A stretch of DNA of 64,000 bases from a virus. The notes under the pieces were generated by a model. The model was not told where the DNA came from, did not search any database, and saw nothing but the letters and a program-made list of their open reading frames with translations. Shown here in pieces: positions 3,985 to 19,241 of the stretch. Within the stretch, counting starts at the first letter, position 1. The number at the start of each line of letters is the position of its first letter. The stretch lies in IMG/VR virus record IMGVR_UViG_3300031787_000065, positions 1-64,000 of that record; one strand, given 5' to 3'. Position numbers and translations under genes: made by a program.

Positions 3985-4845
3985 ATGAAAATCTACATTT
4001 ATGGTTTATACAAGGCTAATTTTGACTATACTACTAACAGTATAGATTCGGGATTATTTTATATAGGAATCACAAAAGACATAAAAACAAGAATATCATC
4101 ACATAAAAGCGCCGATGCAAATCCCTTAAAAAAAGCGTATATGAATAAATATGGATTTTTTGTAAGAGTTTTATACGAATGCTCTTCATATGAAGAGGCA
4201 TTAGAAAGAGAAAGTTTTCTAATTAGATGGTTTGGGAAAATATCAGATGATACTGGCATATTAACAAATATACTTATAGAATCTACAGATATATGTACAT
4301 ATAATCTTGGACAAAAATTTTCTTCAGACCACAAAGCAAAAATGTCTAATGCTTGCTCAACAAGGGGCGATTCATATTGGCAAGAACAAAGAGAAAAGAG
4401 GCTATCTTTGCCTCTAGACGAAATACATAAAATTTTAAAAGAATGGGAAGAGTCTTTTCCAGTAAATAAAAATATCTGCAAAAAATATGGCATTAAGCAA
4501 AATGTTTTTAATTGGTGGATCAGAAAATATAGACCAGATTTAAGAAATCTGACATTTGAAAATAGAAAAAAACATATAGAAAAAATGAATTCATTAGGGC
4601 TAAGCCAAATAGACTATTCAAAATTAATTGGAGTTGATCATAGAACTGTATCTCTATGGTATTGCAAATATGTAAGAGACAATATAGAAATTAAGCCCAA
4701 AAAATCTGTTAAAGATTTAGAATATAAAAAACAAAAATATGAAGAATGGATGAGTTCTGGTTTGTCAAAACGTGATTTCTGTAGTAATAATAATATTAAC
4801 TATAGCTCATTTAAAGCTTGGAAAAAGTACTATGAAGAATATTAA
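3985..4845 (+). CDS. GIY-YIG homing endonuclease with NUMOD3-like and HTH repeats
   Basis: A protein of 286 residues. The GIY-YIG core spans about residues 1-95: YIYGLY (strand 1), GLFYIGITKDIKTRISSH with the catalytic Arg and His/Lys region, and a Glu-rich helix around EALERESFLIRWFG. A NUMOD3-like stretch follows (NLGQKFSSDHKAKMSNACS), then three helix-turn-helix-like units ending in KYGIKQNVFNWWI, LIGVDHRTVSLWY and NNINYSSFKAW, probably binding the target DNA. This modular build matches phage free-standing or intron homing endonucleases such as I-TevI and the Seg proteins. No intron was seen; the gene sits between two unrelated small genes. Confidence 0.85.
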   Translation: MKIYIYGLYKANFDYTTNSIDSGLFYIGITKDIKTRISSHKSADANPLKKAYMNKYGFFVRVLYECSSYEEALERESFLIRWFGKISDDTGILTNILIESTDICTYNLGQKFSSDHKAKMSNACSTRGDSYWQEQREKRLSLPLDEIHKILKEWEESFPVNKNICKKYGIKQNVFNWWIRKYRPDLRNLTFENRKKHIEKMNSLGLSQIDYSKLIGVDHRTVSLWYCKYVRDNIEIKPKKSVKDLEYKKQKYEEWMSSGLSKRDFCSNNNINYSSFKAWKKYYEEY

Positions 4846-4847
4846 AA

Positions 4848-5057
4848 ATGAACCTATACCAAAAATGGATTAACCATTTAAGAGACAATCATATGACTTA
4901 CCGTGAGCATCTAATGTTCGCGGTGGGTCATGGGTTTCTTTGCTGTATAGCTGGCATAATGTTAATAATACACGGATTTCTTCCGTGTTTTTTTGAACAC
5001 ACAGGGTCAAGTTTAGTTAGAAAATTAAAGATATCATTTGACAAACATAGAAGGTGA
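4848..5057 (+). CDS. Small membrane protein, DUF6356-like
   Basis: A protein of 69 residues. The pattern HLRDNHMTYREHLMFA, then a hydrophobic stretch HGFLCCIAGIMLIIHGFLPC and then HTGSSLV, matches DUF6356, a family of short proteins with one or two membrane spans found in bacteria and phages and without known function. It starts two bases after the GIY-YIG stop. An intrinsic terminator is encoded inside it (4970-4994). Confidence 0.6.
   Translation: MNLYQKWINHLRDNHMTYREHLMFAVGHGFLCCIAGIMLIIHGFLPCFFEHTGSSLVRKLKISFDKHRR
4970..4994 (+). terminator. Intrinsic terminator inside the DUF6356-like gene
   Basis: ACACGGA (4970-4976), loop TTTCT, TCCGTGT (4982-4988), then six further T. The hairpin and U-tract are textbook-like but lie within codons for HGFLPCFF. 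Ribosomes translating the gene would tend to suppress it; untranslated transcripts would stop here, just before the polymerase promoter. Confidence 0.55.
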
Positions 5058-5059
5058 CA

Positions 5060-5088
5060 TTGCGTTTGGTTGCGGTTTTGAGTATAAT
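5060..5088 (+). promoter_or_regulatory. Sigma70-like promoter of the DNA polymerase operon
   Basis: TTGCGT at 5060-5065 and a perfect TATAAT at 5083-5088 with a 17-base spacer. It stands in the 63-base gap before the polymerase gene and has a different form from the CGTGTATA motif, which suggests early transcription by unmodified host polymerase. Confidence 0.6.
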
Positions 5089-5120
5089 CTGTTGCACACG
5101 GTTGATAAAGGAGTTGACAT

Positions 5121-6740
5121 TTGAACTGGTTCCCTCTTAAAAATTTGACACACTATAGTTTGCTAAAAGGTTTTTCTAAACCAGAAGAACTTGCTACAAA
5201 GTGTAAAGAAAATGCTTATCCCGCCTGTGGGTTATGTGATTATAAAACAATATCTGGAGCAGTAGCTTTTTATCAAGCTTGTAAAAGCTCTGGAATTAAG
5301 CCCATTATTGGATGCTCATTTGATGGGTATATTCTCTTTGCTAAGAATAAAAATGGTTGGCACGATTTGATAGAGCTTGTATCGTCAATAGACTCGGACG
5401 GCTCTTTATCTAATGATATATTGAACAAGGTGCTAAAGGGCAATAACTTAATAAAGTTATCTGATACTCCCACTTCATCTATGCCAATCAGTTATTATAC
5501 AAAGCAAAGTGATGCCATATACCATAGAATTCTTTTATGCTCAGAGATGAAAACAACGTTGCCCAAAATACACAAACAAATCAGAAAAGATAAGAATAAT
5601 AGCATAAATGTTGATTCATCATTTCCCAAAGAACACTATGATAAATTAAACTATTTTCTTTCGGATAAGTTTTACGTGCTGAATAATGAAGAGTCTAAAG
5701 ACTTAGACACAAAACAATTAGAGGAAATATACAGCCAGTGTGAAGATTATAATATTCTAAATAAGCCCATGTTACCAAAGTTTGACTGCCCAAGAGGACT
5801 ATCAGAAGAAGATTACCTTAAAGAATTGTGCAGAGTAGGATGGAAAAAGCTTTTAATACAAACTGGTAAGGTAAAAGATCCAGATAAGAAAAAGCTATAT
5901 GCAGATAGATTTAATGAGGAATTAAACGTTATAAAAGACGCTAATCTGTTCGGATACTTTCTCATTGTGCAAGATATTATCAGCTATGTTAATAAGCAGG
6001 GGTGGTTGTCTGGACCCGGAAGAGGCAGTGCCGCTGGTTGCTTAATATCATACTTAATTGGTATCACGCAGATTGACCCAATTGAATATGACTTACTATT
6101 TGCACGATTTTATAATGCGGGAAGAAACACTGCGGATCACGTATCTTTGCCAGATATTGATATGGACGTTCCCGGCAAACGACGCGACGAAGTTATTGCT
6201 TATTTAAAGAATAAGTATGGACATGAGCATGTTAGCCAAATGATCACATTTGGCAGACTGCAAGGACGAAGTGCCATTAAAGAAGTATTAAGAGTACATG
6301 AGGCTTGTTCGTTCACTGAAATGAATGCTATTACAAAGAATGTACCAAATGAAGCAGAGATTTCAGATCAATTAGCAGACATGGAAGACGAAGATAGATC
6401 AATCATAAGATGGGCATTAATAAATAGGCCGCAGGAACTACAAGATTTTTGTTCTATTAATGAAAACGGAGAGCTTGAAGGTCAGTATGCTGAATATTTT
6501 AAACAAGCTATTGAGATAGAAGGCACATTCAAAACTCAAGGTAAACACGCTGCCGGTGTTGTAATTTCGGCAAAGCCGCTACAACAAGTTTGCCCCATGT
6601 CTAGACAAAGAGACTCTGATGAAAAAATTGCAGGATTAGAAATGGCTGATCTAGAAGCTTTGGGCCATGTAAAGTTCGACGTTTTAGGACTTTCGCTTCT
6701 TGACAAGATAATGTACATAAAGGAGATAATCAATGGCTAA
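5121..6740 (+). CDS. dnaE: DNA polymerase III alpha (DnaE-type), N-terminal half: PHP and palm
   Basis: A protein of 539 residues from a TTG start at 5121 with AAAGGAG at 5108-5114. Residues 1 to about 230 align by motif with a PHP domain (LTHYSLLKGFSKPEEL, GIKPIIGC), but metal-binding residues are largely lost: the usual HxHSxYS is LTHYS and the usual TDH is CDY. The palm follows: GYFLIVQDIISYV, SGPGRGSAAGCLISYL, and PDIDMDV with catalytic Asp345 and Asp347, then GKHAAGVVIS and VKFDVLGLSLL with the third Asp at about 520. It stops just after this third aspartate, where intact DnaE proteins continue into the fingers. The rest is encoded at 7403-8980. Confidence 0.92.
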   Translation: MNWFPLKNLTHYSLLKGFSKPEELATKCKENAYPACGLCDYKTISGAVAFYQACKSSGIKPIIGCSFDGYILFAKNKNGWHDLIELVSSIDSDGSLSNDILNKVLKGNNLIKLSDTPTSSMPISYYTKQSDAIYHRILLCSEMKTTLPKIHKQIRKDKNNSINVDSSFPKEHYDKLNYFLSDKFYVLNNEESKDLDTKQLEEIYSQCEDYNILNKPMLPKFDCPRGLSEEDYLKELCRVGWKKLLIQTGKVKDPDKKKLYADRFNEELNVIKDANLFGYFLIVQDIISYVNKQGWLSGPGRGSAAGCLISYLIGITQIDPIEYDLLFARFYNAGRNTADHVSLPDIDMDVPGKRRDEVIAYLKNKYGHEHVSQMITFGRLQGRSAIKEVLRVHEACSFTEMNAITKNVPNEAEISDQLADMEDEDRSIIRWALINRPQELQDFCSINENGELEGQYAEYFKQAIEIEGTFKTQGKHAAGVVISAKPLQQVCPMSRQRDSDEKIAGLEMADLEALGHVKFDVLGLSLLDKIMYIKEIING

Positions 6741-7413
6741 TAGGGACTATATTGTATTCGACTTTGAAACTGGTTCTCGTAATCCACACAAAACACAGCC
6801 AACGCAAATAGCTGCATTAGCTCTTGATGGAAGAAATTTTGCTGTGAAGGGTCAATTTAACAGTGAAATTAGACCCATATTTGATGATGAAGAAGCCATA
6901 GCGGCTGGATATGATCCAATTGAAGACGAAGCACTAAAACTTACTGGCAAAACAAGAGAAAAACTAGCAGAGGCTCCACACGTTAAGGCGGTATGGTCTA
7001 AGTTTACAAAATTTGTTAGTCAGTATAACTGGAAGGGTGACGCTTTCTTTAATCCTATTCCGGTTGGTTTTAATATCCTCGGCTTTGATATGATTATCAT
7101 AAACAGACTCTGTAGGGAGTTTGGGCCTTGGGATAAGGAAAGAGAACAGCAGAAGATATTCAGTAAAGTTTATAAGATAGATATTATGGATAATATATTT
7201 GCGTGGACAGAAAGCGATCCATCAGTACGATCAATCAGTATGGATGCCATGCGAGAAAGAATGGGTCTTAGCACAGAAAACGCTCACGACGCTTTGCAAG
7301 ACGTAAAGGACGAAGCTAATATCTTTATTAAGCTAATGAAGACACATAGATCAGTATATCAGAATATTACATTTGATAAAGCTTTTGCAAATGGTGGATT
7401 ATATGTCAAGTAG
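6733..7413 (+). CDS. DnaQ-like DEDDh 3'-5' exonuclease, proofreading subunit
   Basis: A protein of 226 residues starting 8 bases inside the end of the polymerase N-half gene. The active-site motifs are all present: VFDFETGS (Asp10, Glu12), GFNILGFD (Asp119) and ENAHDALQDVKDE (His185, Asp190), the DEDDh arrangement of DnaQ/epsilon. It ends 11 bases after the start of the polymerase C-half gene. Position between the two polymerase halves, with overlaps on both sides, argues that the three are made together and that this is the proofreading nuclease of the same enzyme. Confidence 0.9.
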   Translation: MANRDYIVFDFETGSRNPHKTQPTQIAALALDGRNFAVKGQFNSEIRPIFDDEEAIAAGYDPIEDEALKLTGKTREKLAEAPHVKAVWSKFTKFVSQYNWKGDAFFNPIPVGFNILGFDMIIINRLCREFGPWDKEREQQKIFSKVYKIDIMDNIFAWTESDPSVRSISMDAMRERMGLSTENAHDALQDVKDEANIFIKLMKTHRSVYQNITFDKAFANGGLYVK

Positions 7414-8980
7414 TGTAGATATCAGCTATAATGATGCTCAAACTTGGAAGCTATTTGCAGAAGGCAAAACCAAGGGCATTTTTCAGCTAGAAAGCAATCT
7501 TGGAAAGTCTTGGTCTAAAAAGCTAGCACCAACTAGCATAGAAGAATTATCTGCACTTATCGCTATTATTAGGCCGGGAACATTAAAGGCTTATATAGAT
7601 GGCAAGAGTATGACGCAAATCTATGTAGATAGAAAGCATGGAAGAGAAGAAGTATCTTACTTGCACCCATCTCTAGAAGACATATTAAAGCCAACATATG
7701 GTGTTCTAGTATACCAAGAACAATCCATGCGTATAGCTGAGAAAATTGCTGGATTTAATCTTCAAGAGGCTGACTTGCTTAGAAAAGCTATTGGTAAGAA
7801 AAAGGCTGATCTTATGAATCAAGTAAAAAAGTCTTTTATAGAGGGTGCAGAAAAGAGGGGCATTGTGACTAAAGAAGAGGCGGAAGAAATCTTTGGATGG
7901 ATTGAAAAGTCTTCTAGATATGCTTTCAATAAGTCTCACAGTGTATCATACGCCGTATGTTCTTACTGGAGTGCTTACCAAAAGGCTCATCATACTAAAG
8001 AATTCTTTTTATCTTACTTGTATTATGCCAATGAAAAACAAGACCCTCATCAAGAAATATATGAGTTAATTTCGGAAGCTAAACTTTTTGATATTGGTGT
8101 TAAGACTCCCAATATAGTTAAATTTGGTTCCAAGTTTAATATTGACAAAGATACAATCTTCTTTGGTATTAAAGATGTTAAGTCATTAACTGGAAAAACT
8201 GGAGATAAAGTCATAGAAGCAATAGCGGAAGCGGAAGCAAAGCTGAGCAAGAAAGTCAGTAATTTTTCTTGGCTTGAAGTGTTACTATTTTTCTCTCCAC
8301 TAATTAGTTCAACAGCTTTTAAGGCTTTAGCTTCTATAGGATTTTTTAGAGGATTTAAGGATAGAATAACAAGAAATAAAGCTTTATATGACTATGAAAT
8401 TTTTAGAACTTTGACAAAAACAGAACAATCTTGGTTAGAAAATAATTATCAATCTAAAAAGTGGACAAATTTTATAGACTGTTTGAAAGATTTATCTCCA
8501 GTGAAAAAAGAGGGCGGTGGAACTAGTAGTATTGTCCGAAAGCAAGCTATAGAAAATGAGATTCAGCTATTAATTAGTCCACCGTATTCTCTAGAAGATG
8601 ATCCAAGCTGGGTTATTGATCAAGAAGTAAAATTCTTGGGATGTCCAGTTAGTCTAACAAAAATAGAAACATCTGACACTTCTGCGGCCAATACAACTTG
8701 TAAAGAAATTGTCAATGGTAAAAAGGGGAAGGACTTGTGCATAGTAGCCAATGTCCAAAGAGTTTCGGATTATAAGATTAAAAAGGGCGAGTCTAAGGGG
8801 CAAACCATGTCATTTCTAACAATAGAGGATGACACATGCTTACTAGACAGCGTAATCGTTTTCCCAAAAGTAAAAGATAAATATAAGTATATTTTATATG
8901 AGGGTAATAATTTAATTTTCTGTGGTTCTGTAAGTGACCAAGATAGCTCTTTTATTGTCAATCAGATTCATGAAATTTAG
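7403..8980 (+). CDS. dnaE: DNA polymerase III alpha (DnaE-type), C-terminal half: fingers, clamp-binding, OB fold
   Basis: A protein of 526 residues. The ATG at 7403 is chosen because GGTGGA precedes it; in-frame ATGs at 7373 and 7391 lack a ribosome site. It opens almost directly into DnaE motifs: KGIFQLESNLG, ALIAIIRPGTL, PTYGVLVYQEQSMRIAEKIA, ADLLRKAIGKKK and SSRYAFNKSHSVSYA (fingers and tau/clamp-side regions). The C-terminal 90 or so residues (IVANVQRVSDYKIKKG, MSFLTIEDDTCLLDSVIV) form the OB-fold usual at the end of DnaE. With the N-half it gives about 1065 residues, close to a whole DnaE. No intein residues are visible at either break. Confidence 0.92.
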   Translation: MSSSVDISYNDAQTWKLFAEGKTKGIFQLESNLGKSWSKKLAPTSIEELSALIAIIRPGTLKAYIDGKSMTQIYVDRKHGREEVSYLHPSLEDILKPTYGVLVYQEQSMRIAEKIAGFNLQEADLLRKAIGKKKADLMNQVKKSFIEGAEKRGIVTKEEAEEIFGWIEKSSRYAFNKSHSVSYAVCSYWSAYQKAHHTKEFFLSYLYYANEKQDPHQEIYELISEAKLFDIGVKTPNIVKFGSKFNIDKDTIFFGIKDVKSLTGKTGDKVIEAIAEAEAKLSKKVSNFSWLEVLLFFSPLISSTAFKALASIGFFRGFKDRITRNKALYDYEIFRTLTKTEQSWLENNYQSKKWTNFIDCLKDLSPVKKEGGGTSSIVRKQAIENEIQLLISPPYSLEDDPSWVIDQEVKFLGCPVSLTKIETSDTSAANTTCKEIVNGKKGKDLCIVANVQRVSDYKIKKGESKGQTMSFLTIEDDTCLLDSVIVFPKVKDKYKYILYEGNNLIFCGSVSDQDSSFIVNQIHEI

Positions 8981-9039
8981 TTTGATAGTGTGTTTTTTTC
9001 TTTTGTAGTTGCTAATATATTAAGATCAAGGAGAGTTCA

Positions 9040-9351
9040 ATGAATTTATGTTCTTTTACTGGCTACTTGGTTGAAAATCCAAGAATTACTATGTCTGGAG
9101 ATATAGTTAGGGCCGACTTTGTTATGGTTGTCTATACTTACCGCAAAACTAAGAGCGGTGAAAAGAATAGAATACCAACATATTTACAGTGCGAAGCTTG
9201 GCATACCGGCGCAGAAACCTTAGAAAAATATGCCATAAAAGGCACTAAGTTGACTGTTCACGCTTCTGCAAAAAATGTTTCTAAAGATAATAGTAGTATT
9301 GTTTTTAGAATTAACGAATTTGATTTTTGTCAACAGGATTGTGATGACTAA
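9040..9351 (+). CDS. ssb: Single-stranded DNA-binding protein (OB fold)
   Basis: A protein of 103 residues after AAGGAGAG. It begins MNLCSFTGYLVENPRI and continues RADFVMVVYT and PTYLQCEAWHTGAETLEKYA then KGTKLTVHASAK, the order of strands and the W-x-G/A-E-x(3)-Y segment seen in SSB. The family's acidic tip is short here (FDFCQQDCDD). It follows the polymerase genes, consistent with a replication role. The 59-base gap before it has no clear promoter. Confidence 0.82.
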   Translation: MNLCSFTGYLVENPRITMSGDIVRADFVMVVYTYRKTKSGEKNRIPTYLQCEAWHTGAETLEKYAIKGTKLTVHASAKNVSKDNSSIVFRINEFDFCQQDCDD

Positions 9352-11011
9352 TATGAGAAAAAAAAGAATACTGTTTTGTAGCGAAGCCACGTTTCTAAAT
9401 ACTGGATACGCAACATACACTAGAGAAATTCTAAATTATCTACACAGCACAGGCAAGTACGAACTGGCTGAATTGGCATCTTATGGAGAAAAGAATGATC
9501 CAAGAGCCAATGGAACCCCTTGGAAGTTCTATGGGGTTGTTCCCGGAGAAAATGCTTCTCAGCAGGAAAAGGAACAGTATCAAAACCATCCAACATCTCA
9601 ATTTGGTGAACTAGCATTTGAACCAGTATGTCTAGACTTTAAGCCAGACATAGTATGTGATATTAGAGATTTTTGGATGTTAGACTTCCAAGAAAGATCT
9701 CCATTTCGACCATATTTTAAGTGGTGTATTATGCCCACAGTTGACGCTAGACCTCAAGCCAGACAGTGGGTGTCCACTTATCAAACAGCAGATGCCTGTT
9801 TAACATATTCCGAATGGGCTGGGGAAGTATTAAAAGAACAGTCTGGTAATAAGATTAATTACATTGGAATATCTCCACCATCAGCACATTCAGCATACCG
9901 TCCTATAGAAGACAAGGCAGCTTTAAGAAAGAGCTTTGGCCTTGATCCTAATCTAAAGATTATTGGTACGGTAATGAGAAATCAAAGAAGAAAGCTGTAC
10001 CCAGACCTGTTTGAAGCTTTTAAGCTTTTATTAGATAAAGTTCCAAACCCTCAAGATTATGTTCTATACTGCCATACCAGCTATCCAGATTTAGGATGGG
10101 ACATACCAGAGTTATTACATCAATATCAGTTATCTTCTAAAGTATATTTTACATATATTTGTGGTCAAACTGGAAAGCCTTTCGTATCACTGTTTCGCGG
10201 TGCAGTTACTCAGTCTCCATACACAGGGCAGTATGGTTCAGTATTGTCTAATGTAAAGATGGGAGCAGAATATGAAGATCTAGCCAAGATAATGAATCTT
10301 TTTGATATTTATGTTCAATATGCTAACTGTGAAGGTTTTGGTTTGCCCCAAGTAGAAGCTGCGGCTTGCGGTGTGCCAGTTATGTCTACTGATTATTCAG
10401 CTATGGAGAGTGTGGTTAGAAACTTAAATGGTATACCAGTTAAACCAAAAGCTCTTTATAAGGAGCTTGAAACTGGATGTTTACGAGCCGTGCCAGACAA
10501 TGAACTCGCTGCCAACCTTCTTATCGAATTCTTTAATATGCCAGATGAAGATAGACAAAAACTTAGTATTCAAACTAGAGAGTTGTTTTTGAAGCATTAT
10601 CAGTGGGATCAGAGCGGTCGTGCTTGGGAAACATATTTTGATAGTATAGAATTGCCAAAAGACAATGAGGGATGGAATTCTCCAGCAAGAATATTCCAGC
10701 CAGCAAATAAACCAGAAAAAGTACCAGAAGATGCTAGTCCACAACTGTTGGCAAAATGGTTAATATCAAATGTACTAAGAGAGCCAGAGAGACTAAATAC
10801 TTATTTAGAGTCTAAACTTGTTAGAGATTTAACTTATAAAACTCATACATCTATTACTGGTGGTATGTATTTCAATGAGAGTTCAGCGGCTTTTGATGGT
10901 AAGCAAACAAGAAATCACTTTGATTTTAATATAGCTTATGAGCATATGCTTGCCCTGTGTAATCGCAGAAATTTTTGGGAACAAAAGAGAATAGAGGCTA
11001 TTAAGCGATGA
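9344..11011 (+). CDS. Family 4-like (GT-B) glycosyltransferase with C-terminal extension
   Basis: A protein of 555 residues. The ATG at 9344 has CAGGA five bases upstream and overlaps the SSB stop by 8 bases. The N-terminal Rossmann half has ILFCSEATFLNTGYATYTREIL, the glycine-rich entrance of GT4 enzymes. The C-terminal half has IIGTVMRNQRRKLYPDLFEA (donor-binding basic residues) and EGFGLPQVEAAACGVPVMST, the E-x7-E motif. About 130 extra residues follow the catalytic fold, of unknown role. First gene of a sugar cluster read as one message. Confidence 0.85.
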   Translation: MTNMRKKRILFCSEATFLNTGYATYTREILNYLHSTGKYELAELASYGEKNDPRANGTPWKFYGVVPGENASQQEKEQYQNHPTSQFGELAFEPVCLDFKPDIVCDIRDFWMLDFQERSPFRPYFKWCIMPTVDARPQARQWVSTYQTADACLTYSEWAGEVLKEQSGNKINYIGISPPSAHSAYRPIEDKAALRKSFGLDPNLKIIGTVMRNQRRKLYPDLFEAFKLLLDKVPNPQDYVLYCHTSYPDLGWDIPELLHQYQLSSKVYFTYICGQTGKPFVSLFRGAVTQSPYTGQYGSVLSNVKMGAEYEDLAKIMNLFDIYVQYANCEGFGLPQVEAAACGVPVMSTDYSAMESVVRNLNGIPVKPKALYKELETGCLRAVPDNELAANLLIEFFNMPDEDRQKLSIQTRELFLKHYQWDQSGRAWETYFDSIELPKDNEGWNSPARIFQPANKPEKVPEDASPQLLAKWLISNVLREPERLNTYLESKLVRDLTYKTHTSITGGMYFNESSAAFDGKQTRNHFDFNIAYEHMLALCNRRNFWEQKRIEAIKR

Positions 11012-12132
11012 AATTATTATTTATAGGTCATTACAAAGAGGGAACCGGATGGTCACAAGCCGCCTTAAATTCTATAAAGGCTTTAGACTCTACGGATCTA
11101 GATGTTGTTTGTAGAAATATTAAGCTCACTAACGCTAATCCAACCATTGATCCTCAAATCTTAGGATTAGAAATGAAGGATTTGGAAGATGTAGATTATT
11201 GTATACAAAATGTATTACCGCACCACATGGTGGGAACTAGTAAGTTTAAAAAGAATATAGCCTATTTTGTTTCAGAGTCCAACACTTTAAGACATAATGG
11301 GTGGCTTGATAATCTCAGAGTGATGGACGAAGTGTGGATTCCTAACTATGAGTTAAAACAAATGCTACTAAACGATGGCATAGAAGAATCAAAAATAAGA
11401 GTAGTTCCATACGCTTTTGATATATTAAAGTATAGCAGAAAGTATCCAAAGATAAATTTTTATGATAAGAAAAATACATTTAAGTTCTATTATATAGGAG
11501 AACTGAATGATCGTAAGAACATTGAGTCTATAATTAGATGTTTTCACAGCGAGTTTGAAAATTACGAACCAGTATCTTTAGTTCTTAAAGTAAAAAGACA
11601 TGGAATATCTAGCGGGGACTTAGAGAAGTACATGACCAATCTTTCTAAATCTGTAAAAGAAGAGCTTCGTATCTATAAGAACACAGAGGATTATCTACCA
11701 GAAATTGTAATTGCTAACAATATATCGGACGATGACATACAAGTATTACACAATACGTGTGACTGTTTTGTTGGACCAACTCATGGCGAGGGATGGTCTA
11801 TTCCAGCTTTTGAAGCAATGGCTTATGGCAAAACGCCCATTTGTAGCAATGAGGGTGGACCAAAAGATTTCATAGATGCAAACAATAAATCAACTGGGTG
11901 GCTAGTTAATGGTGTTAAAGATATTTGTACACATTCAGATCCAGCATTTCCAGAACTTTTTACCGGAAGAGAAGAGTGGTTCCATCCTAGCGAATCTGAA
12001 ATTAAAAAAGCTATGAGATTCTATTATGAGAATAAAGATAATATTGATAGGTCTGCTGGACTAAGTAGAGCAGAATGTTTTTCTTATAGCAATATTGGAC
12101 AGCTTATTATGGAGATTCTAAATGATAAATAA
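11008..12132 (+). CDS. Family 4-like (GT-B) glycosyltransferase
   Basis: A protein of 374 residues joined to the previous gene by an ATGA overlap. It starts MKLLFIGHYKEGTGWSQAAL, then has FKFYYIGELNDRKNIESII (donor-site basic pair) and HGEGWSIPAFEAMAYGKTPI, the GT4 E-x7-E motif. VDYCIQNVLP and VDEVWIPN-like segments resemble GT4 proteins of large phages. Acceptor and sugar unknown. Start unambiguous from the overlap. Confidence 0.85.
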   Translation: MKLLFIGHYKEGTGWSQAALNSIKALDSTDLDVVCRNIKLTNANPTIDPQILGLEMKDLEDVDYCIQNVLPHHMVGTSKFKKNIAYFVSESNTLRHNGWLDNLRVMDEVWIPNYELKQMLLNDGIEESKIRVVPYAFDILKYSRKYPKINFYDKKNTFKFYYIGELNDRKNIESIIRCFHSEFENYEPVSLVLKVKRHGISSGDLEKYMTNLSKSVKEELRIYKNTEDYLPEIVIANNISDDDIQVLHNTCDCFVGPTHGEGWSIPAFEAMAYGKTPICSNEGGPKDFIDANNKSTGWLVNGVKDICTHSDPAFPELFTGREEWFHPSESEIKKAMRFYYENKDNIDRSAGLSRAECFSYSNIGQLIMEILNDK

Positions 12133-13126
12133 TTCTGTGAGCAGGCTAATAGATATAACTAATAGCGGAAAAGAACAAAAAGAAAAGTATAATATACTTA
12201 CCTTTCCAACTCATGAAAGGTATGAAACTCAGCTTTGTAAAACGGGTCACAATTTTTATTCCTTTCATTTGCCAAATTTGAAAAAGTGGAATGCTGCACA
12301 GTTGACAGTGCCAGATAATTATTATATTCTTCCAGAGCAAGAATTGTGTTCATATGTGAAGTATGATTTTATTTTATCTCAAAGTAAGTTCTGGCAATTC
12401 CAAGTTGCTGTAGAGCTTAACCAGAGGCTTAATTTGCCTATGATTTCGCTAGAGCATACTCTTCCAACTCCGCAAACCATTAGTGAAAAAAATCTATCAT
12501 TAATGAAGAACATGAGGGGAGATGTTAATGTGTTTATATCTGAATTTTCTAAGAACGCTTGGGAAATCAATATGAATTCAATAATTATACATCATGGAAT
12601 TGATTCTGAAACTTTCAGACCAACAGGCTGTGAGAAAAACAATTCTGTTTTAACGGTCGCTAACGATTTTGTAAATAGAGATTATTGTCTTAATTATAGT
12701 GGATGGAAACGGGTTACTCAAGATTTAGAAACCAGACTAGTTGGCGACACAAAAGGCTTATCTGTATCGGCATCTTCAACGGAAGATTTGGTTGATGAGT
12801 ATAATAAGTGTGCAGTTTATTTCAACAGTTCTACTCTAAGTCCAATACCAACCTCTTTATTAGAAGCTATGTCTTGTGGCTGTGCCGTGGTATCAACGGC
12901 AACCTGTATGATACCAGAAATTATAGAGAATGGAGTAAACGGATTTATTTCTAATGATGAGCGGCAGTTAAGATCATATATAGAATTATTGCTTAATGAC
13001 AAAGAGGCTGCTATTAAGATTGGCAATAATGCTAGGCAAACTATAACAGAGAAATTCTCAGAACAAAAGTTTATTAATAATTGGAATCACGTATTCGACA
13101 AAGTTTATGAGGTATCACGCCGATGA
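12122..13126 (+). CDS. Family 4-like (GT-B) glycosyltransferase, third copy
   Basis: A protein of 334 residues overlapping the previous gene by 11 bases. Motifs include VFISEFSKNAWEI, IIHHGIDSETFRPTG (linker to the donor domain), and STLSPIPTSLLEAMSCGCAV, in which the distal Glu of the E-x7-E motif is kept while the first position is Ser/Thr. LNDKEAAIKIGNNARQTI and EKFSEQKFINNWNHVF form the usual terminal helices. The altered first acidic residue could mean changed specificity or loss of activity. Confidence 0.8.
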   Translation: MINNSVSRLIDITNSGKEQKEKYNILTFPTHERYETQLCKTGHNFYSFHLPNLKKWNAAQLTVPDNYYILPEQELCSYVKYDFILSQSKFWQFQVAVELNQRLNLPMISLEHTLPTPQTISEKNLSLMKNMRGDVNVFISEFSKNAWEINMNSIIIHHGIDSETFRPTGCEKNNSVLTVANDFVNRDYCLNYSGWKRVTQDLETRLVGDTKGLSVSASSTEDLVDEYNKCAVYFNSSTLSPIPTSLLEAMSCGCAVVSTATCMIPEIIENGVNGFISNDERQLRSYIELLLNDKEAAIKIGNNARQTITEKFSEQKFINNWNHVFDKVYEVSRR

Positions 13127-13557
13127 AAATCTATATAACAGAACATCTAGATAAAGCAATAGAGCATTATAAAATCATCCCAATTCTATATGGGAAGATT
13201 GATATGATTAGCATACCAAATAATTCTGCTACAGAAGTAGTAGCTATAGATGCTCTTGATAGCATCCCGTCTAACTTATTAGTAGAATTTGTTCAATCTG
13301 TGAGACAAAAAATGAGGGTGGGAGCTTCTTTAGTCATGGGCGGCGTAGAGCTTTCTGCTTTAGCTAGAGATATCATAAATAATAAAATATCAACTCAGGA
13401 CTTTAACGAGCTAATATTTAATAAGCGCGGTATATATAGATCACTAGATATTGTGGATCTATTAAAGCAAGCAGGACTAGCTATTGATAAAGTAACAATA
13501 AGAGGTTATCACTATGAAATCGCCGCTTCAAGACCAAATGATTCAAACAAGTTGTAA
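13123..13557 (+). CDS. Methyltransferase-like protein lacking the SAM-binding half
   Basis: A protein of 144 residues, ATGA overlap with the previous gene. The segment EVVAIDALDSIPSNLLVEFV then VGASLVMGGVEL resembles motifs II-IV of class I methyltransferases found in sugar clusters, and the rest (SLDIVDLLKQAGLAIDKV, GYHYEIAASRP) resembles their C-terminal sheet. The glycine-rich SAM-binding motif I is absent, so it is either a diverged or an inactive member. Assignment is by pattern only. Confidence 0.5.
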   Translation: MKIYITEHLDKAIEHYKIIPILYGKIDMISIPNNSATEVVAIDALDSIPSNLLVEFVQSVRQKMRVGASLVMGGVELSALARDIINNKISTQDFNELIFNKRGIYRSLDIVDLLKQAGLAIDKVTIRGYHYEIAASRPNDSNKL

Positions 13558-14269
13558 AAATTGTATTTTTGCACTTTATGAAGATCAAACTCAAACCGGA
13601 TGTTATGCGAGTAGAATATATAAATATCAAAAATTAGATAAAGTTGTAGAAGCCTATGACAATGATAAAGAGTTTTATGTTGTCAAAAGCTTTTGTAATA
13701 TGTATAGAAACTCTTCATGGAATAATGGAGAAGCTGATTCTCAAAAAGCTTATGAAGAAGCCAGTATAGCTTTTGACATTTATATAGACTGTTCAGAATT
13801 AAATGAGAATAATGTAGCAAAACTCACAGAGTTTGTTACTAAGCAGAAGTATTATAAGGATAAATATAGGATAACACTGTACCACGGTCACGACGCATCA
13901 AAAGAAACAAGAAAGCTAGTATTACATCTATTTACTTTAAGTAATCATACTATATATATATCTTCTTGCGATAATAAAGAAAACTATTTACATAATCAAT
14001 TGTTACAGTCTAAGGGGTCATACGCTATTACTTGTAGTGTTGATTCTGATTATTATGATAATATCTTGTTAGATATAAACAGTGTCATAAACGAGGATCT
14101 AAAAAAGTGCATAGCTATTAAATATAGCGACATTGTGGCAATTTCTACAGCAGCATATAAGGTAGAATTTTTTACTATCAACCTAAACGAATATTCACCG
14201 ATAGTAGACTCATTATTGAGTAGGATAGATAATACAACGCTATTCTTTGAGATTAAAGATGAAAACTAA
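13514..14269 (+). CDS. Uncharacterised protein with four-cysteine N-terminus in sugar cluster
   Basis: A protein of 251 residues. The ATG at 13514 gives a 44-base overlap with the previous gene; it has AGAGG upstream, while the ATG at 13538 has none. Cysteines at 14, 17, 30 and 61 (C-x2-C-x12-C-x30-C) with QTGCYASRI and SFCNMYRN around them could bind zinc or an iron-sulfur cluster. The remainder alternates strands and helices in a GT-A-like way (AFDIYIDCSELNENNV, YRITLYHGHD), but no DxD is clear. Not recognised as a named family; the place in the cluster suggests a sugar-related role. Confidence 0.5.
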   Translation: MKSPLQDQMIQTSCKNCIFALYEDQTQTGCYASRIYKYQKLDKVVEAYDNDKEFYVVKSFCNMYRNSSWNNGEADSQKAYEEASIAFDIYIDCSELNENNVAKLTEFVTKQKYYKDKYRITLYHGHDASKETRKLVLHLFTLSNHTIYISSCDNKENYLHNQLLQSKGSYAITCSVDSDYYDNILLDINSVINEDLKKCIAIKYSDIVAISTAAYKVEFFTINLNEYSPIVDSLLSRIDNTTLFFEIKDEN

Positions 14270-15002
14270 ATGTGTAACATCAACAAGAAGAAACATCAAG
14301 GGGCAACCTTGTAAAACTGAACTTATTAGTGTGATTTTATTGTGTGATTCGCCTGGATACAGAATGAAATCTTATGGCCCACTGCCCCTAATAAATATAG
14401 CGAGTCATAAACTAATAGATATGCAGATAAAAGCTATACAACAAACGCTTTTAAATTTTGAAATTATACTGTGTGTTGGCTTTGATTCTGATAAAATAGT
14501 AAAATATATTAGAAGTAAATACTCAAACTTACCCATTAGGATTGTGGAGAATCAGCTATTTAACTCATCTAACAATTGTGAAAGTGCCAGATTAGCACTA
14601 AATAACACTCTTAATAATAAAGTGTTAATATGTGATGGCAACCTTTTATTCACCAACAAAACGCTTTCACTTATTAATTACGCTCAAACGTGCGTTCTTA
14701 CAGAAACGAACCCGTGTGAGAATTTAGAGGTAGGCATAAACGTGGACGCTAATGACGAGGCCCAGTATTTTTGTTTTGGGGCGCATTCTATATGGTCAGA
14801 AATTATCTTTTTACATAATGAAGATATAATAGAAGTATTGAGAAGGAACCTAGCATCACAAGATAGTAAAAATAAGTTTTTATTTGAAGCGATTAATGAA
14901 TTAATTAAAACAAAACATAAAATTAAATGCATAAAAAATAAATATCCTATAAATAGAATCAATAATATTAAAACATATCACGCTATAAAAGGTGGAAAAT
15001 GA
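14259..15002 (+). CDS. Nucleotidyltransferase-like protein (sugar-NTP transferase fold)
   Basis: A protein of 247 residues from the ATG at 14259. After a basic N-terminus comes ISVILLCDSPGYRMKSYGPL, which resembles the G-x-G-x-R-M/L nucleotide-binding loop of sugar-phosphate nucleotidyltransferases, followed by a P-L-I-N segment like the K-P-L-L motif. LICDGNLLF stands where the metal-binding Asp motif is expected. It would activate a sugar for the neighbouring transferases. The loop is diverged, so substrate and activity are uncertain. Overlaps both neighbours. Confidence 0.55.
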   Translation: MKTKCVTSTRRNIKGQPCKTELISVILLCDSPGYRMKSYGPLPLINIASHKLIDMQIKAIQQTLLNFEIILCVGFDSDKIVKYIRSKYSNLPIRIVENQLFNSSNNCESARLALNNTLNNKVLICDGNLLFTNKTLSLINYAQTCVLTETNPCENLEVGINVDANDEAQYFCFGAHSIWSEIIFLHNEDIIEVLRRNLASQDSKNKFLFEAINELIKTKHKIKCIKNKYPINRINNIKTYHAIKGGK

Positions 15003-15868
15003 AGTTTGTAATTAGCAATTATGGCTCGACTACTCAAACGGAGTGCTTTTATTTTAACGCTGCTCTGAACCTAATAAACGGCTGTAGTTCAGCAATGTGG
15101 GATAATAAAACAATAAGTGCTTATGATATGTTTGATGCTATAAAGCCAGATTATTTCATAACGCATATAAATACAATTTTTACAGATGTTCTACATTACA
15201 TAGAAGAAAATGGAGGTCCATCTCTAATAATAAATGCTACTGGACTTAAAGCCGATAATATCAAAGAAATAGAATCAGTTTTGCTATCTAAAAAAATACC
15301 AATATCTTTTTTCTATAGCAATTCTGATGATCAAGTTTACAAATTATCTAAAACTAATATGATTTGTATTCCTTTGGGAGCAGACGTATTTTTGAATACG
15401 AGTGGAGCTGACTTTAATATAAATAAATGCTTTTTGATTAATAAAGAAGATCAACTAAAGTCATCAGACGGTACTTATCACAATGTTTCTACTGGAGAGG
15501 CAGATAAAAATATTGGAGACATACATCTAGGCGTATCGGAATTAGCACAAATATATAAGAATTATGACGAAATAGTATTTAGATTTTATGGGTCTATGCT
15601 GCCCCAATCCTTGTTTGACGCTATATACTACGGAAATAAAGTCTATTACGATCTAGAAGACGGGGAAACTCAGGGCGTTGTGGAAAGTAAGCTAAAGAAA
15701 ATATTCAAAGTAGACGATTTAACAAATGTTAAAGAAATCAAGAATATTGTAAAAAATAAACACACATGTTTACACAGAACAAAATCCTTGCTGTCTCAGC
15801 TTCCATCACATAACATTATTAATGGGTTAGATCAGATCATAGACTATCAAAAGGGGCTAACAACATGA
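14999..15868 (+). CDS. Probable GT-B glycosyltransferase-like protein
   Basis: A protein of 289 residues, ATGA overlap with the previous gene. It begins with a strand MKFVISNYGSTTQTECFYFN and has FDAIKPDYFITH, a GT-B-like N-domain segment, then IPISFFYSNSDDQ and a C-terminal DEIVFRFYGSMLPQSLFDAI followed by YYGNKVYYD, similar to the donor-site helix of CgeB/GT1-like proteins. The usual glutamates are not evident. The assignment is tentative and supported mainly by context. Confidence 0.45.
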   Translation: MKFVISNYGSTTQTECFYFNAALNLINGCSSAMWDNKTISAYDMFDAIKPDYFITHINTIFTDVLHYIEENGGPSLIINATGLKADNIKEIESVLLSKKIPISFFYSNSDDQVYKLSKTNMICIPLGADVFLNTSGADFNINKCFLINKEDQLKSSDGTYHNVSTGEADKNIGDIHLGVSELAQIYKNYDEIVFRFYGSMLPQSLFDAIYYGNKVYYDLEDGETQGVVESKLKKIFKVDDLTNVKEIKNIVKNKHTCLHRTKSLLSQLPSHNIINGLDQIIDYQKGLTT

Positions 15869-16635
15869 GCGTAACAGTTGTTCTTAGCGGATTTAAAAGA
15901 CCACACGTTTTAAAACAACAGTTTGAAGCTATCAAGAGGCAAACTGTTGGACAGGTGCCAATCATGTTGTGGGTAAATCTAGTAGATCAAAATATTAAAT
16001 TTGATAATGATATACTAAATAGTTGCGAAACTATTATATCTAATTCAGATTATGGTAGCTGGGGTAGATTCTGTATAGCTCTTAACGCTTCAACGCAGTA
16101 TATTTGTGTTATAGATGATGACACTATACCGGGAAGTAAATGGCTTGAAAATTGTTTTAATACTATGGAAACTCATCGCGGAGTTTTAAGTACAAGGGGC
16201 GTAATAGCTGACAAGATTTATGATTTAGAATATCCAGCACCACGTAGCTATACTCCTATAGGGTGGTGCAATCCAAACGAACAGGTTATGCGTGTAGATA
16301 TGGGTTGCCACTCATGGTTCTTTGAAAAAGATTGGTTACGAGCTTTCTGGATGGAAATGCCATTAACCGTACCAAAAAGATATGGTGAAGATACTCATAT
16401 ATCATATGTAGTAAAAAAACACTTTGGGCTAAATACATATGTTCCACCGCACCCAAAAGACGATATAGAAATGTGGGGTTCTATGCCAGAAACAGCTATA
16501 AAGTATGGCGAAGAACCAGTGGCTATTTCTATGGATTATAATGCTAATATTGGAATGAATAAATATTGGAATTTTGTTAGGTCAAATGGCTATAACATCA
16601 TAGCCCACGAAACAAAGTCGGAGAAAACAGAATGA
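15865..16635 (+). CDS. Family 2-like (GT-A) glycosyltransferase
   Basis: A protein of 256 residues, ATGA overlap. It begins VTVVLSGFKRPHVLKQQFEA followed by IKRQT, the GT2 entrance. YICVIDDDTIPGSKWLENCF holds the DDD metal motif. RYGEDTHISYVVKKHF provides the ED motif with the catalytic-base position. Related enzymes transfer a sugar from a nucleotide donor. Together with the GT4 genes it implies an oligosaccharide of several units. Confidence 0.83.
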   Translation: MSVTVVLSGFKRPHVLKQQFEAIKRQTVGQVPIMLWVNLVDQNIKFDNDILNSCETIISNSDYGSWGRFCIALNASTQYICVIDDDTIPGSKWLENCFNTMETHRGVLSTRGVIADKIYDLEYPAPRSYTPIGWCNPNEQVMRVDMGCHSWFFEKDWLRAFWMEMPLTVPKRYGEDTHISYVVKKHFGLNTYVPPHPKDDIEMWGSMPETAIKYGEEPVAISMDYNANIGMNKYWNFVRSNGYNIIAHETKSEKTE

Positions 16636-17120
16636 ATATAGGGATATATGTTAATTCTCTTAGCGATGCCAACCTAGAGTATATTTCTAACTTTATTAAC
16701 GAGTCTATAGAACATCAATATGCTTCTGATGCTAGCATATTCTTTGATGATGTAGGTTACAATCCTCATAAGGTGCAGTGCGGCATATTTAACGCTGCTG
16801 ATATTTGGAATTTTCATGGAGTTCTTATTACAACGTCGTTAGATACTCTTTCTAGTGCTAAAAATATAGTAAACAATATTGATTTATATTATTATTATGG
16901 ATATGAAGATATTTCAAAAATAAACCTATTAAATCTAATAGAGAAAACAAAGAATGTCAAAGTAATATGTAACAACGAGACAGACAGCTTAGAATTCTAT
17001 AGAAAAACTGGAAAAAAACCATCCGTTATATCTGAATGCTATAAAGGTTTAGCGGCACAACTACAAGGGCACGAAAATGAATACTCAAAAAATACTACAA
17101 ATGTATATAGAGCAAAATAA
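16632..17120 (+). CDS. Hypothetical protein at end of sugar cluster
   Basis: A protein of 162 residues with an ATGA overlap to the GT2 gene. It starts MNIGIYVNSLSDANLEYISN and ends in VICNNETDSLEFYRKTGKKP followed by a short tail. The alternating strand-helix pattern and IWNFHGVLITTSLDTL resemble the N-terminal half of a GT-B fold, but no catalytic motif is present. Its last 44 bases overlap a nuclease gene, so its C-terminus may have been shortened by that insertion. Confidence 0.5.
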   Translation: MNIGIYVNSLSDANLEYISNFINESIEHQYASDASIFFDDVGYNPHKVQCGIFNAADIWNFHGVLITTSLDTLSSAKNIVNNIDLYYYYGYEDISKINLLNLIEKTKNVKVICNNETDSLEFYRKTGKKPSVISECYKGLAAQLQGHENEYSKNTTNVYRAK

Positions 17121-17844
17121 AAGCACCTATGAAATAGCAGAACATTTTAAAACTTATCCCAACAAGATTAGAAGAATTCTTATTAAGCAAGGAATTGAGC
17201 TAAAGACTAAAAGCGAGGCTCAGAAAAATGCTATAGATCGCGGTGTGGCCATACATCCAACGAGCGGCAAAACAAGAACAGCAGAAGAAAAACTTAAGAT
17301 TAGCTCTAGTCTACAAAAATATTGGGATAATATGTCTGATGAAGACTATGAACAAAAAATTCATCAGTCTAGGGAGCGTTGGCATAATATGTCAGCAGTT
17401 GAAAGAGCCAATATGATGGAAGCTGCTATAAAAGGTATACAATTAGCTGGTAAAGAGGGTTCTAAATTAGAAAAGTTTTTATACTCAGAGTTAACCGCCG
17501 CTGGATATAAAATAGATTTTCATAAAAAGCAGCTTATCCAGAATGAAAACTTAGAAATCGACATGTACGTTCCCAAGCTCAAGACTATAATAGAGATAGA
17601 CGGGCCATCCCACTTCCTTCCAATATGGGGAGAAGAAAAGCTTCAAAAGCAAATTAAGGCAGATGCCCATAAAACAGGTTTAATTTTGAGCAAAGGCATG
17701 GTAATTATACGTGTTAAAAATATATCAGACGCCCAATCGTTAGCGTCCAAAGAAAAATTGCGTCTTGACATTTTGAATTGTCTTGGTAAAATAGACAAAA
17801 ACTTTCCACCACAATCAGAAAGGCTTATTGAGATAGAAATATGA
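17077..17844 (+). CDS. Vsr/EDxHD-like homing endonuclease with HTH and NUMOD3-like region
   Basis: A protein of 255 residues; AAGGG precedes the ATG. An N-terminal HTH (STYEIAEHFKTYPNKIRRIL) is followed by a NUMOD3-like repeat region (TRTAEEKLKISSSLQKYWDN and YEQKIHQSRERWHNMS). The C-terminal nuclease has GSKLEKFLYSELTAAGYKI, ENLEIDMYVPKLKTIIEIDG, SHF, and KADAHKTGLILSKGMVIIRV, the PD-(D/E)XK layout of Vsr, DUF559 and the EDxHD homing endonucleases such as I-Bth0305I. Probably a free-standing mobile nuclease. It overlaps 44 bases of the gene before and 4 of the gene after. No promoter motif or ribosome-hiding hairpin was found for it. Confidence 0.75.
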   Translation: MNTQKILQMYIEQNKSTYEIAEHFKTYPNKIRRILIKQGIELKTKSEAQKNAIDRGVAIHPTSGKTRTAEEKLKISSSLQKYWDNMSDEDYEQKIHQSRERWHNMSAVERANMMEAAIKGIQLAGKEGSKLEKFLYSELTAAGYKIDFHKKQLIQNENLEIDMYVPKLKTIIEIDGPSHFLPIWGEEKLQKQIKADAHKTGLILSKGMVIIRVKNISDAQSLASKEKLRLDILNCLGKIDKNFPPQSERLIEIEI

Positions 17845-18608
17845 GTACAACAATCGTTGAAACTGAAAACTTGTTTGCAGAAGTTGAGCTAGCTACGCCA
17901 AGCAATACCGATACTAGAACAAAAGATGTGGTGGTGTCTGACGCTCCATCAATGCTATCTGCTGAATGGCACGACTACGCAATGACGCTATTCCATCCAT
18001 CAGAAATGGTAGATGGTCACCCTCTCGTTGCTGGACTGCGAAGAGTATCAGAGGTTGTTTTGGGACCAATCATGTTTAGTGGCCCAACGCAAGTGTTTCC
18101 AGTACAGAGAGAAGATCATCATGGTAGAGCTACCGTAGTATTTACAGTAGAATTTGCTAATGGAATGAAGTATTCAGAAGTTGCAGACTCTTGGGAGGGT
18201 AATACTGATGACATGTTTTGTGCATTCGCTGTAGCTATTGCTAGCACAAGAGCAGAAGCCAGAGCGTTAAGAAAAGCTCTCAAGATTAAGGGTGTGGCGG
18301 CAGAAGAACTAACTAAGAAAGATACCGCCAAGATAGTGCGAGATATCTCTTCTACCAAGACCGCTAGCGAGGGTGAATATAATGAACAAAGTCGTATGAG
18401 CGATGCTCAGTACAATTTTATTGATGTTAAGTGTAAACAGCTAAATATCAATGGTCAGAAGCTATTTAAGAATTTCAATGTAGATAGCGGAAAGAAGGTT
18501 TCTAAGAAAACGGCAAGTGATATCATTGATGCCCTCAATGACTATCAAAGAGATAAGAGTATGATTCCAAAAGATATTATGGGCTATGAACAGGAGTGGC
18601 GTAACTAA
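17841..18608 (+). CDS. Candidate single-strand annealing protein (Rad52/ERF-like)
   Basis: A protein of 255 residues. The central part has ATVVFTVEFANGMKYSEVAD, FCAFAVAIASTRAEARALRK and ALKIKGVAAEEL; the A-S-x-R-A-x-x-R-A-L-R-K-A-L helix is typical of phage proteins annotated as Rad52- or ERF-like annealing proteins. A separate C-terminal helical module (MSDAQYNFIDVKCKQLNING then a heptad helix) resembles the small DNA-binding tail of such proteins. It would pair complementary strands in recombination-dependent replication with the nuclease at 1009-2034. Assignment by motif, moderate. Confidence 0.5.
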   Translation: MSTTIVETENLFAEVELATPSNTDTRTKDVVVSDAPSMLSAEWHDYAMTLFHPSEMVDGHPLVAGLRRVSEVVLGPIMFSGPTQVFPVQREDHHGRATVVFTVEFANGMKYSEVADSWEGNTDDMFCAFAVAIASTRAEARALRKALKIKGVAAEELTKKDTAKIVRDISSTKTASEGEYNEQSRMSDAQYNFIDVKCKQLNINGQKLFKNFNVDSGKKVSKKTASDIIDALNDYQRDKSMIPKDIMGYEQEWRN

Positions 18609-18943
18609 TGAAACTAACATATACTACTAAAAACGGCAGAATTAATGTAGAGGTAGAAGGAGAGTCCCAAAAGGATTTGTTTCTAGAGCTTAGTAAATTT
18701 CAAGAAGTGTTTGAAGAAACTAAGTGTGGAAAGTGCGGTTCGGAAGATCTGAGATTCGTAGTTAGGACAGTAGAGGATAATCAGTATTACGAGCTACGAT
18801 GTATGTCTTGTGGTGCTAGATTAGCATTTGGTGTACACAAGAAGGGTGGCGGGTTATTCCCCAAGCGTAAGGATAACGATGGAAAGTGGTTGCCAGATAA
18901 TGGATGGGTTAAGTGGAATCCAAAAACAGAGCAATCGGAATAA
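18608..18943 (+). CDS. Zinc-ribbon protein, conserved next to annealing protein
   Basis: A protein of 111 residues, TAATG junction with the previous gene. Cysteines at 40, 43, 65 and 68 form a CxxC-x21-CxxC zinc ribbon: TKCGKCGSEDLRFVVRTVED, then YYELRCMSCGARLAFG. The C-terminus GGGLFPKRKDNDGKWLPDNG followed by W-V-K-W is a conserved signature of a small phage family. Probably binds DNA or the annealing protein; function unproven. Confidence 0.65.
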   Translation: MKLTYTTKNGRINVEVEGESQKDLFLELSKFQEVFEETKCGKCGSEDLRFVVRTVEDNQYYELRCMSCGARLAFGVHKKGGGLFPKRKDNDGKWLPDNGWVKWNPKTEQSE

Positions 18944-18953
18944 AGGAGAGTTT

Positions 18954-19241
18954 ATGAAGAATTTACTAGGCGTATTCATTCTATTACTTGCTAGCGTTTC
19001 TTCTAATTGTTACGCTAATAATGTTATATATGTTACGCCACCACAACCAGTTCCAGTTCTACAGGTAATGGTTTATCAAGCTCCAGCTTATACCGTCATG
19101 GTTCCAGTTGTAGTGCAACCAGTACCAGTGGTAGAACAAAGAGTGGTATGGGGATATCCTTATCAACCCATGATAGTTCCAGTGGCTCAATATGGCCATT
19201 GGGGATATGATAGGCGTTGTAGGCTTATCAATCATTATTGA
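18954..19241 (+). CDS. Small secreted Val/Pro-rich protein
   Basis: A protein of 95 residues; the ATG at 18954 has GGAGAG upstream. It has a clear Sec-type signal peptide, MKNLLGVFILLLASVSSNCYA, cut probably after YA at residue 21. No good lipobox surrounds the cysteine. The mature part is made of Val-Pro repeats (QPVPVLQVMVYQAPAYTVMV, VVVQPVPVVEQ) and an aromatic C-terminus. Low-complexity; probably sits at the host envelope. Function unknown. Last gene before the convergent terminator. Confidence 0.6.
   Translation: MKNLLGVFILLLASVSSNCYANNVIYVTPPQPVPVLQVMVYQAPAYTVMVPVVVQPVPVVEQRVVWGYPYQPMIVPVAQYGHWGYDRRCRLINHY

Follow-up and report, generated by a model that had tools for sequence, protein, structure and literature searches.

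A family-C replicative DNA polymerase encoded in two pieces around its proofreading exonuclease gene in a clade of uncultured phages

Gene order and domain content of the polymerase locus

In this study, we analyzed the replicative polymerase locus of a virus of bacteria from the first 64,000 nucleotides (the window, meaning this whole stretch) of the IMG/VR record IMGVR_UViG_3300031787_000065, which is a linear virus record of 79,386 bases. At positions 5121–8980, the alpha subunit DnaE is encoded by two open reading frames (ORFs), an N-half and a C-half, and the gene of a DnaQ/epsilon-like exonuclease lies between them (Table 1), an order hereafter written N-exo-C. A preliminary description of the sequence had read three overlapping genes at this place, and their coordinates, the overlaps of 8 and 11 bases and the residue numbers were all confirmed from the ORFs. 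Its combined length of about 1065 residues agrees with the 539 + 525 = 1064 residues of the two ORFs. It had also placed the end of the N-half soon after the third catalytic aspartate and the start of the C-half shortly before an IFQLES motif; the end lies 19 residues beyond D520, and the start lies about 23 residues upstream of the motif. The mechanically called start of the C-half ORF is a TTG at 7373, upstream of the ATG. Shine-Dalgarno-like motifs precede the N-half starts of relatives as well as that of the window, whose own two junctions hold no inserted gene. The family-C replicative polymerase is a single chain in nearly all bacteria. An ordinary DnaE is one polypeptide, whereas two ORFs encode the enzyme in the window and in every related contig carrying both genes, and the locus therefore represents a family-C polymerase in two chains.

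The results of profile searches showed PHP (6.7e-18, residues 9–117) and DNA_pol3_alpha (5e-71) domains of Pfam in the N-half and DNA_pol3_finger (4.6e-49) in the C-half, while the exonuclease matched RNase_T in Pfam (2e-12) and the polymerase exonuclease subunit phrog_192 (7e-23). A single phage DNA polymerase profile, phrog_405 (length 1190), was tiled by the N-half at 246–615 and by the C-half at 625–1056. Because the N-half profile aligns to residues 6–572 of Escherichia coli alpha and the C-half profile begins at residue 591, the cut is located in the palm/fingers linker, at about residues 573–590 of E. coli alpha. When modelled alone by AlphaFold, the N-half reached a mean predicted local distance difference test (pLDDT) score of 90.2 and the C-half one of 82.4, and the best Foldseek matches in the Protein Data Bank were DnaE for the former and full-length DnaE for the latter. 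A HHH_6 match in the C-half lies below the Pfam cut-off; in Foldseek, the C-half aligns to DnaE over its full length and to OB folds over a part. The domain content and the three catalytic aspartates given in the preliminary description are thus borne out by Pfam, by the tiling of phrog_405 and by the invariance of D345, D347 and D520 in 33 N-halves. FQLES was likewise invariant in 32 C-halves, and so were the DEDDh residues D10, E12, D119, H185 and D190 of the exonuclease in 77 relatives.

Table 1. Features of the polymerase locus in the window, and split-intein N-halves of related loci
Feature	Position	Strand	Remarks
GIY-YIG homing-endonuclease-like neighbour upstream of the N-half	3985..4845	+	GIY-YIG 6.4e-11; phrog_314 homing endonuclease
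Shine-Dalgarno-like AAAGGAG before the N-half	5107..5113	+	Direct sequence reading
DnaE N-half (PHP, palm, thumb; D345, D347, D520)	5121..6740	+	539 residues, TTG start
N-half/exonuclease overlap, 8 bases, ATGGCTAA	6733..6740	+	N-half stop to exonuclease start
DnaQ/epsilon-like DEDDh 3'-5' exonuclease	6733..7413	+	226 residues; Pfam, PHROG
Exonuclease/C-half overlap, 11 bases	7403..7413	+	Exonuclease end to C-half ATG
DnaE C-half (fingers, putative helix-hairpin-helix and OB-fold tail)	7403..8980	+	525 residues, ATG at 7403
SSB-like gene directly downstream of the C-half, replication cassette	9040..9351	+	Pfam SSB 9.3e-07
N-halves divided by a split intein	L244:2044-5120, L255:2071-5131, L349:2835-5126, L055:4346-6311		

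Conservation, tree position and origin of the split

The close relatives of the window are the IMG/VR loci L003–L082, whose C-halves are 55–84% identical to that of the window. The N-exo-C order was kept in 79 of these 80 loci, the remaining one being a 4.5 kb contig without the upstream part. The same order was found in L122 and L123 (40–48% identical), contigs of metagenome-assembled genomes labelled Flavobacteriales and Lokiarchaeota that are probably misbinned viruses; the other 78 loci in their scan comprise 75 with a fused DnaE, two without the N part in the fetched stretch and one, L153, that is out of frame. Scans queried with L122 and L123 gave 160 further loci, 159 with N-exo-C and one cut at the contig edge. 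Searching phage genomes for the same split and order, as suggested in the preliminary description, thus brought together about 237 distinct related viral contigs that share both (five contigs turn up twice across the scans and are counted once; L088 and L089 are included) and none with a fused gene; in the related contigs without N-exo-C, the N gene is missing at the contig edge. Recurrence of the same order in so many distinct contigs argues that it is due neither to chance nor to assembly error. No cultured phage with N-exo-C was found among the INPHARED matches listed, and the N-half of L088, used as a query against viral_contigs, matched only itself.

All three genes are under purifying selection, the median ratios of nonsynonymous to synonymous substitution rates (dN/dS) among closer pairs being 0.056 for the N-half, 0.023 for the exonuclease and 0.042 for the C-half, and no internal stops were found in 77 relative loci. 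A fused polymerase elsewhere in the genome had been named as evidence against the split. No second or fused DnaE was found in the 79,386-base record, which holds one palm and one fingers domain, and the same is true of 18 related contigs of 105–231 kb with one domain of each kind apiece, which therefore hide no fused copy. In one of these, L356, the palm match itself is broken by stops, which sequencing error may explain.

The junctions were then compared in group A, consisting of 77 analyzed loci of the close relatives, and in group B, which includes L122. In group A, the N-half and the exonuclease gene overlap by 8 bases in 36 loci, by 11 in 14 and by 14 in 5, and the exonuclease gene and the C-half overlap by 11 bases in 22. 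An extra gene was present at one or both junctions in 44 of the 77 loci, and parsimony requires at least 13 gains or losses at the N/exonuclease junction and at least 17 at the exonuclease/C junction. Even L025 and L026, which are 98.7% identical in the C-half, differ in their junction inserts. Among the inserts are Endonuclease VII-like genes (22 loci), members of the HNH_3 family, an FkbM methyltransferase and a further family (7 loci) that looks PD-(D/E)xK-like by eye and has no Pfam match. Inserts of 0.3–4 kb leave the N-half, the exonuclease and the C-half all intact. In most group B loci, the N-half and the exonuclease gene are separated by a conserved ORF of about 60 residues (L122:5028-5207) with the pattern ..VG..F..NG..Y.K....SCCK..NA.. 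and no Pfam match.

To place the split, a tree of 57 polymerases was built (LG+G4, quick search, with support from the Shimodaira-Hasegawa-like approximate likelihood ratio test only). The window group (13 rows) and the L122/L123 group (20 rows) form one branch with support of 100, and every split N-exo-C row sits on one side of that branch. Judged from these sequences, the N-exo-C split is an old one that goes back to a single event in the clade's common ancestor, and no repaired copy has been seen. Nearest in the tree sample are polymerases of three Bacteroidota phages. Those of Bacteroides phage SJC03 and Chryseobacterium phage MA9V-3 are fused, and that of Cellulophaga phage phi13:1 has its break at another place, immediately ahead of the first catalytic aspartates. 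This last DnaE (phiST group, L084:4680-8280) has odd extra residues at both ends of its cut. The cultured relatives of the exonuclease among the matches listed are only Bacteroides and Chryseobacterium phages, together with two faecal phage contigs, at 24–30% identity, and in SJC03 the exonuclease gene lies about 14 kb away from dnaE. This separate location and these relatives suggest that the exonuclease may have been an older partner whose gene later came to lie between the halves.

It is plausible that the cut and the insertion of the exonuclease gene came about through recombination capture around homing endonucleases. A specific version, which is possible although we give it somewhat less than an even chance, is that a homing endonuclease gene entered dnaE and either carried in the exonuclease gene or was replaced by it. 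At the junctions of relatives, ORFs of the Endonuclease VII-like, HNH_3 and other nuclease-like kinds were repeatedly gained or lost, a GIY-YIG gene adjoins the N-half in the window (as a neighbour of the polymerase, outside the enzyme itself), and insertions of this kind account for the divided nrdA and gene 60, and possibly gene 43, of T4-like phages (PMC2988022). However, no intermediate was found in which a nuclease is the only gene between the halves, phiT1 and Fowlmouth are divided at the palm/fingers linker and have no nuclease there, and the nucleases may be later arrivals that use a broken gene, as suggested for gene 43 of phage 25. This origin is compatible with a polymerase that works as two chains.

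Assembly of the two chains and alternative explanations

The phage's own replicase is very probably a two-chain alpha subunit, produced by coupled translation and assembled non-covalently with the epsilon-like exonuclease. In such a mechanism, two separate proteins would make up alpha, with the division at the flexible linker that joins palm/thumb to fingers. The N-half, the exonuclease and the C-half would be translated in succession from one message, the exonuclease being made between the halves by coupled re-initiation at the short overlaps, and each alpha chain would fold on its own and associate non-covalently with the other at the palm/fingers contact. Epsilon, which is bound at the PHP side in other replicases, as established for E. 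coli, may by analogy bind at the same side here, giving an N:epsilon:C core replicase. Because function is conserved in hundreds of phages and T4-like precedents have been tested (PMC2988022), non-covalent assembly of the halves is strongly suggested, and an enzyme of one chain that is found split across hundreds of related viruses would probably work as an assembled complex.

Two points weigh against this explanation. Each half was modelled without the other, and the predicted template modelling score (pTM) of the C-half was 0.57, although lower certainty may be expected for a multi-domain part without its partner. In addition, the clade is uncultured, and the phage might use a host polymerase for part of its replication. 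A variant that we consider rather unlikely gives the position of the exonuclease gene a purpose: epsilon, synthesised from the shared message immediately ahead of the C-half, would be an obligate structural bridge, holding the alpha chains together or guiding their assembly; if this were true, the core would be an obligate three-chain one with proofreading inseparable from polymerisation.

Joining of the halves into a single alpha chain, whether through trans-splicing inteins or through an unrecognised intron spliced out of the RNA, is highly improbable, even though relatives carry such elements at other places in the enzyme. In L055, L244, L255 and L349, a split intein divides the N-half at GPGRG^SAAG; a nuclease-like gene separates the two parts in L244 and L255 but not in L349 and L055, and the layout of L257 matches that of L255. 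In L088 and L089, the C-half is cut at FNx^SH (L088:5166-8047), where a split intein can be read from the ORFs of L088, whose C-half parts flank a DUF559/Vsr-like gene; we take this site to be near that of the cyanobacterial DnaE split (FNKSHS region). In L329 and L332, a LAGLIDADG gene interrupts the N gene just before the catalytic PDID motif; it was read in L329 (3396–4247), where it is intron-like but has no Rfam match around it. At the palm/fingers cut of the window, by contrast, no intein sequence is present on the end of the N-half or the start of the C-half, in line with the preliminary description, and no intron was recognised by Rfam across positions 4500–9500, even at E values up to 1. 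The breaks of L055, L244, L255, L349, L088 and L089 are fractured genes with splicing elements, whereas the palm/fingers cut is without any. Moreover, in the 77 relatives the ends of the halves are short and uniform and their stop and start codons clean, and nearly the whole of an intron here would be a conserved exonuclease gene overlapping the exons on both sides, with a length ranging from 0.7 to over 4 kb.

Programmed frameshifting at both overlaps, giving an N-exo-C or N-C fusion, has even less to recommend it. The frames in the window step +1 and +1, and the relative frame of the N-half and the exonuclease gene is mostly kept, which counts in its favour. However, it is rejected because separate genes occupy the junctions of many relatives, namely the ORF of about 60 residues in group B and unrelated genes in 44 of the 77 group A loci, and an N-C fusion must in addition skip the entire exonuclease gene. 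Since all three genes remain intact irrespective of what is inserted between them, the enzyme can be explained without frameshifting or splicing. That the split genes are a decaying relic in a phage using the host polymerase is scarcely credible, for although the polymerase gene is an insertion hot spot and the N gene of L356 is broken, the catalytic residues are invariant across the clade down to about 40% identity, dN/dS is far below 1 and the 77 loci are free of internal stops.

Beyond the polymerase, about a dozen plus-strand genes run right after it in the window (9275–19241), with a glycosyltransferase first; a glycosyltransferase-like gene also follows DnaE in L088 and L123. L251 encodes a DUF1559 pseudopilin (L251:3809-4882; PF07596, 1.2e-42), a type that we take to be typical of Planctomycetota. 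The subtilase of the window phage (L083:10999-12192) begins IENLENRLALTG, which resembles a planctomycete sorting motif; a planctomycete-type LEPR-XLL signal suspected there by eye was not confirmed by any NCBIfam or Pfam family. There is thus a weak hint that the hosts may be planctomycetes.

Comparison with known split polymerases

The palm/fingers linker is also cut in four cultured phages, each with the two parts of DnaE as neighbouring genes. In Rossellomorea phage phiT1, gp20 ends ..VKFDLLGLKTLKVIQNSVDQINQGVAV, followed by a 49-residue ORF and then by gp18, which begins MFDILDIPLDDAKTYKLL, and the Mycobacterium phages Fowlmouth, MrMiyagi and Cuke have two adjacent dnaE genes (gp85/gp86 type), which overlap by 4 bases in Fowlmouth. 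Unlike the window, none of the four has an exonuclease gene between the halves, and Indlulamithi, a relative of Fowlmouth, has a fused DnaE, whereas no fused gene was found in the window clade. As the halves of phiT1 and the mycobacteriophages are only 31–45% identical to those of the window, the cut point is apparently convergent between these phages, which are not among the 57 polymerases of the tree, and the window clade. There appear to have been at least three independent cuts in the palm/fingers linker, which makes it a place where family-C polymerases tolerate a break. These phages are grown in the laboratory, so that the cut is compatible with function if they depend on the enzyme, and the Fowlmouth-type mycobacteriophages offer a culturable model in which the cut can be tested.

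The closest known principle is that of the T4-like genes in pieces. The split gene 43 (43A/43B) of Aeromonas phages 25 and 44RR, nrdA of Aeh1 and gene 60/39 of T4 encode essential enzymes as separate chains that reassemble without splicing; in tests, the two parts of phage 25 gp43 were purified together and showed polymerase activity, and NrdA of Aeh1 was fully active although split (PMC2988022). As in those cases, the coding sequence in the window lies in separate ORFs with their own start and stop codons. The T4-like breaks carry homing endonucleases (PMC2988022); nuclease-like genes, which may or may not have made the break, stand at the junctions of many relatives, and the window's own junctions are without them. 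The T4-like cases concern a family B polymerase or other enzymes, whereas the window enzyme belongs to family C. Furthermore, what separates the pieces in T4-like phages is a nuclease gene or an untranslated stretch, and in the window it is the gene of the polymerase's own proofreading partner. In group 2.2 jumbo phages, the core of a family-C polymerase is likewise found in two phage proteins, but that enzyme is minimal, lacks PHP and other domains, has its two genes far apart and occurs together with a family B polymerase (PMC7824862); in the window, PHP is present and the genes are adjacent.

Fractured genes with split inteins (Dassa et al. 2009, as cited in PMC6892783) have nuclease genes between their parts. 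L088, L244 and L255 fit this description, whereas the cut of the window has no intein. Split inteins and nuclease genes have accumulated in this polymerase gene at more than one site, which makes it well suited for studying how genes of phages are fractured. The cyanobacterial split DnaE is presumably cut by its intein in the FNKSHS region, and only L088 and L089 are cut there among the loci analyzed here. In another clade (L090/L097–L113; L097:4705-8532), PHP, DnaQ and the rest of the polymerase are three consecutive genes, so that a DnaQ-like gene again lies between DnaE parts; that cut, however, falls between PHP and palm, the polymerase is about 30% identical and its place in the tree is separate. 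L112 has an additional ORF between PHP and DnaQ.

The preliminary description knew of no described system with this gene order. For N-exo-C this stands, as no description of the arrangement was found in the open-access literature searched, but it does not hold for the split point, which four cultured phages share and which alone is therefore not new. The window locus most likely works like a T4-like gene in pieces in which the divided enzyme is a family-C polymerase and the gene between the pieces encodes its own proofreader. Most cultured phages sampled have this replicative polymerase as one chain, whereas a large and old clade of uncultured phages has retained it as two, with the proofreader between them, which provides a natural two-part replicase for structural work. 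The gene-in-pieces principle is known; the N-exo-C arrangement is not described in the literature searched.

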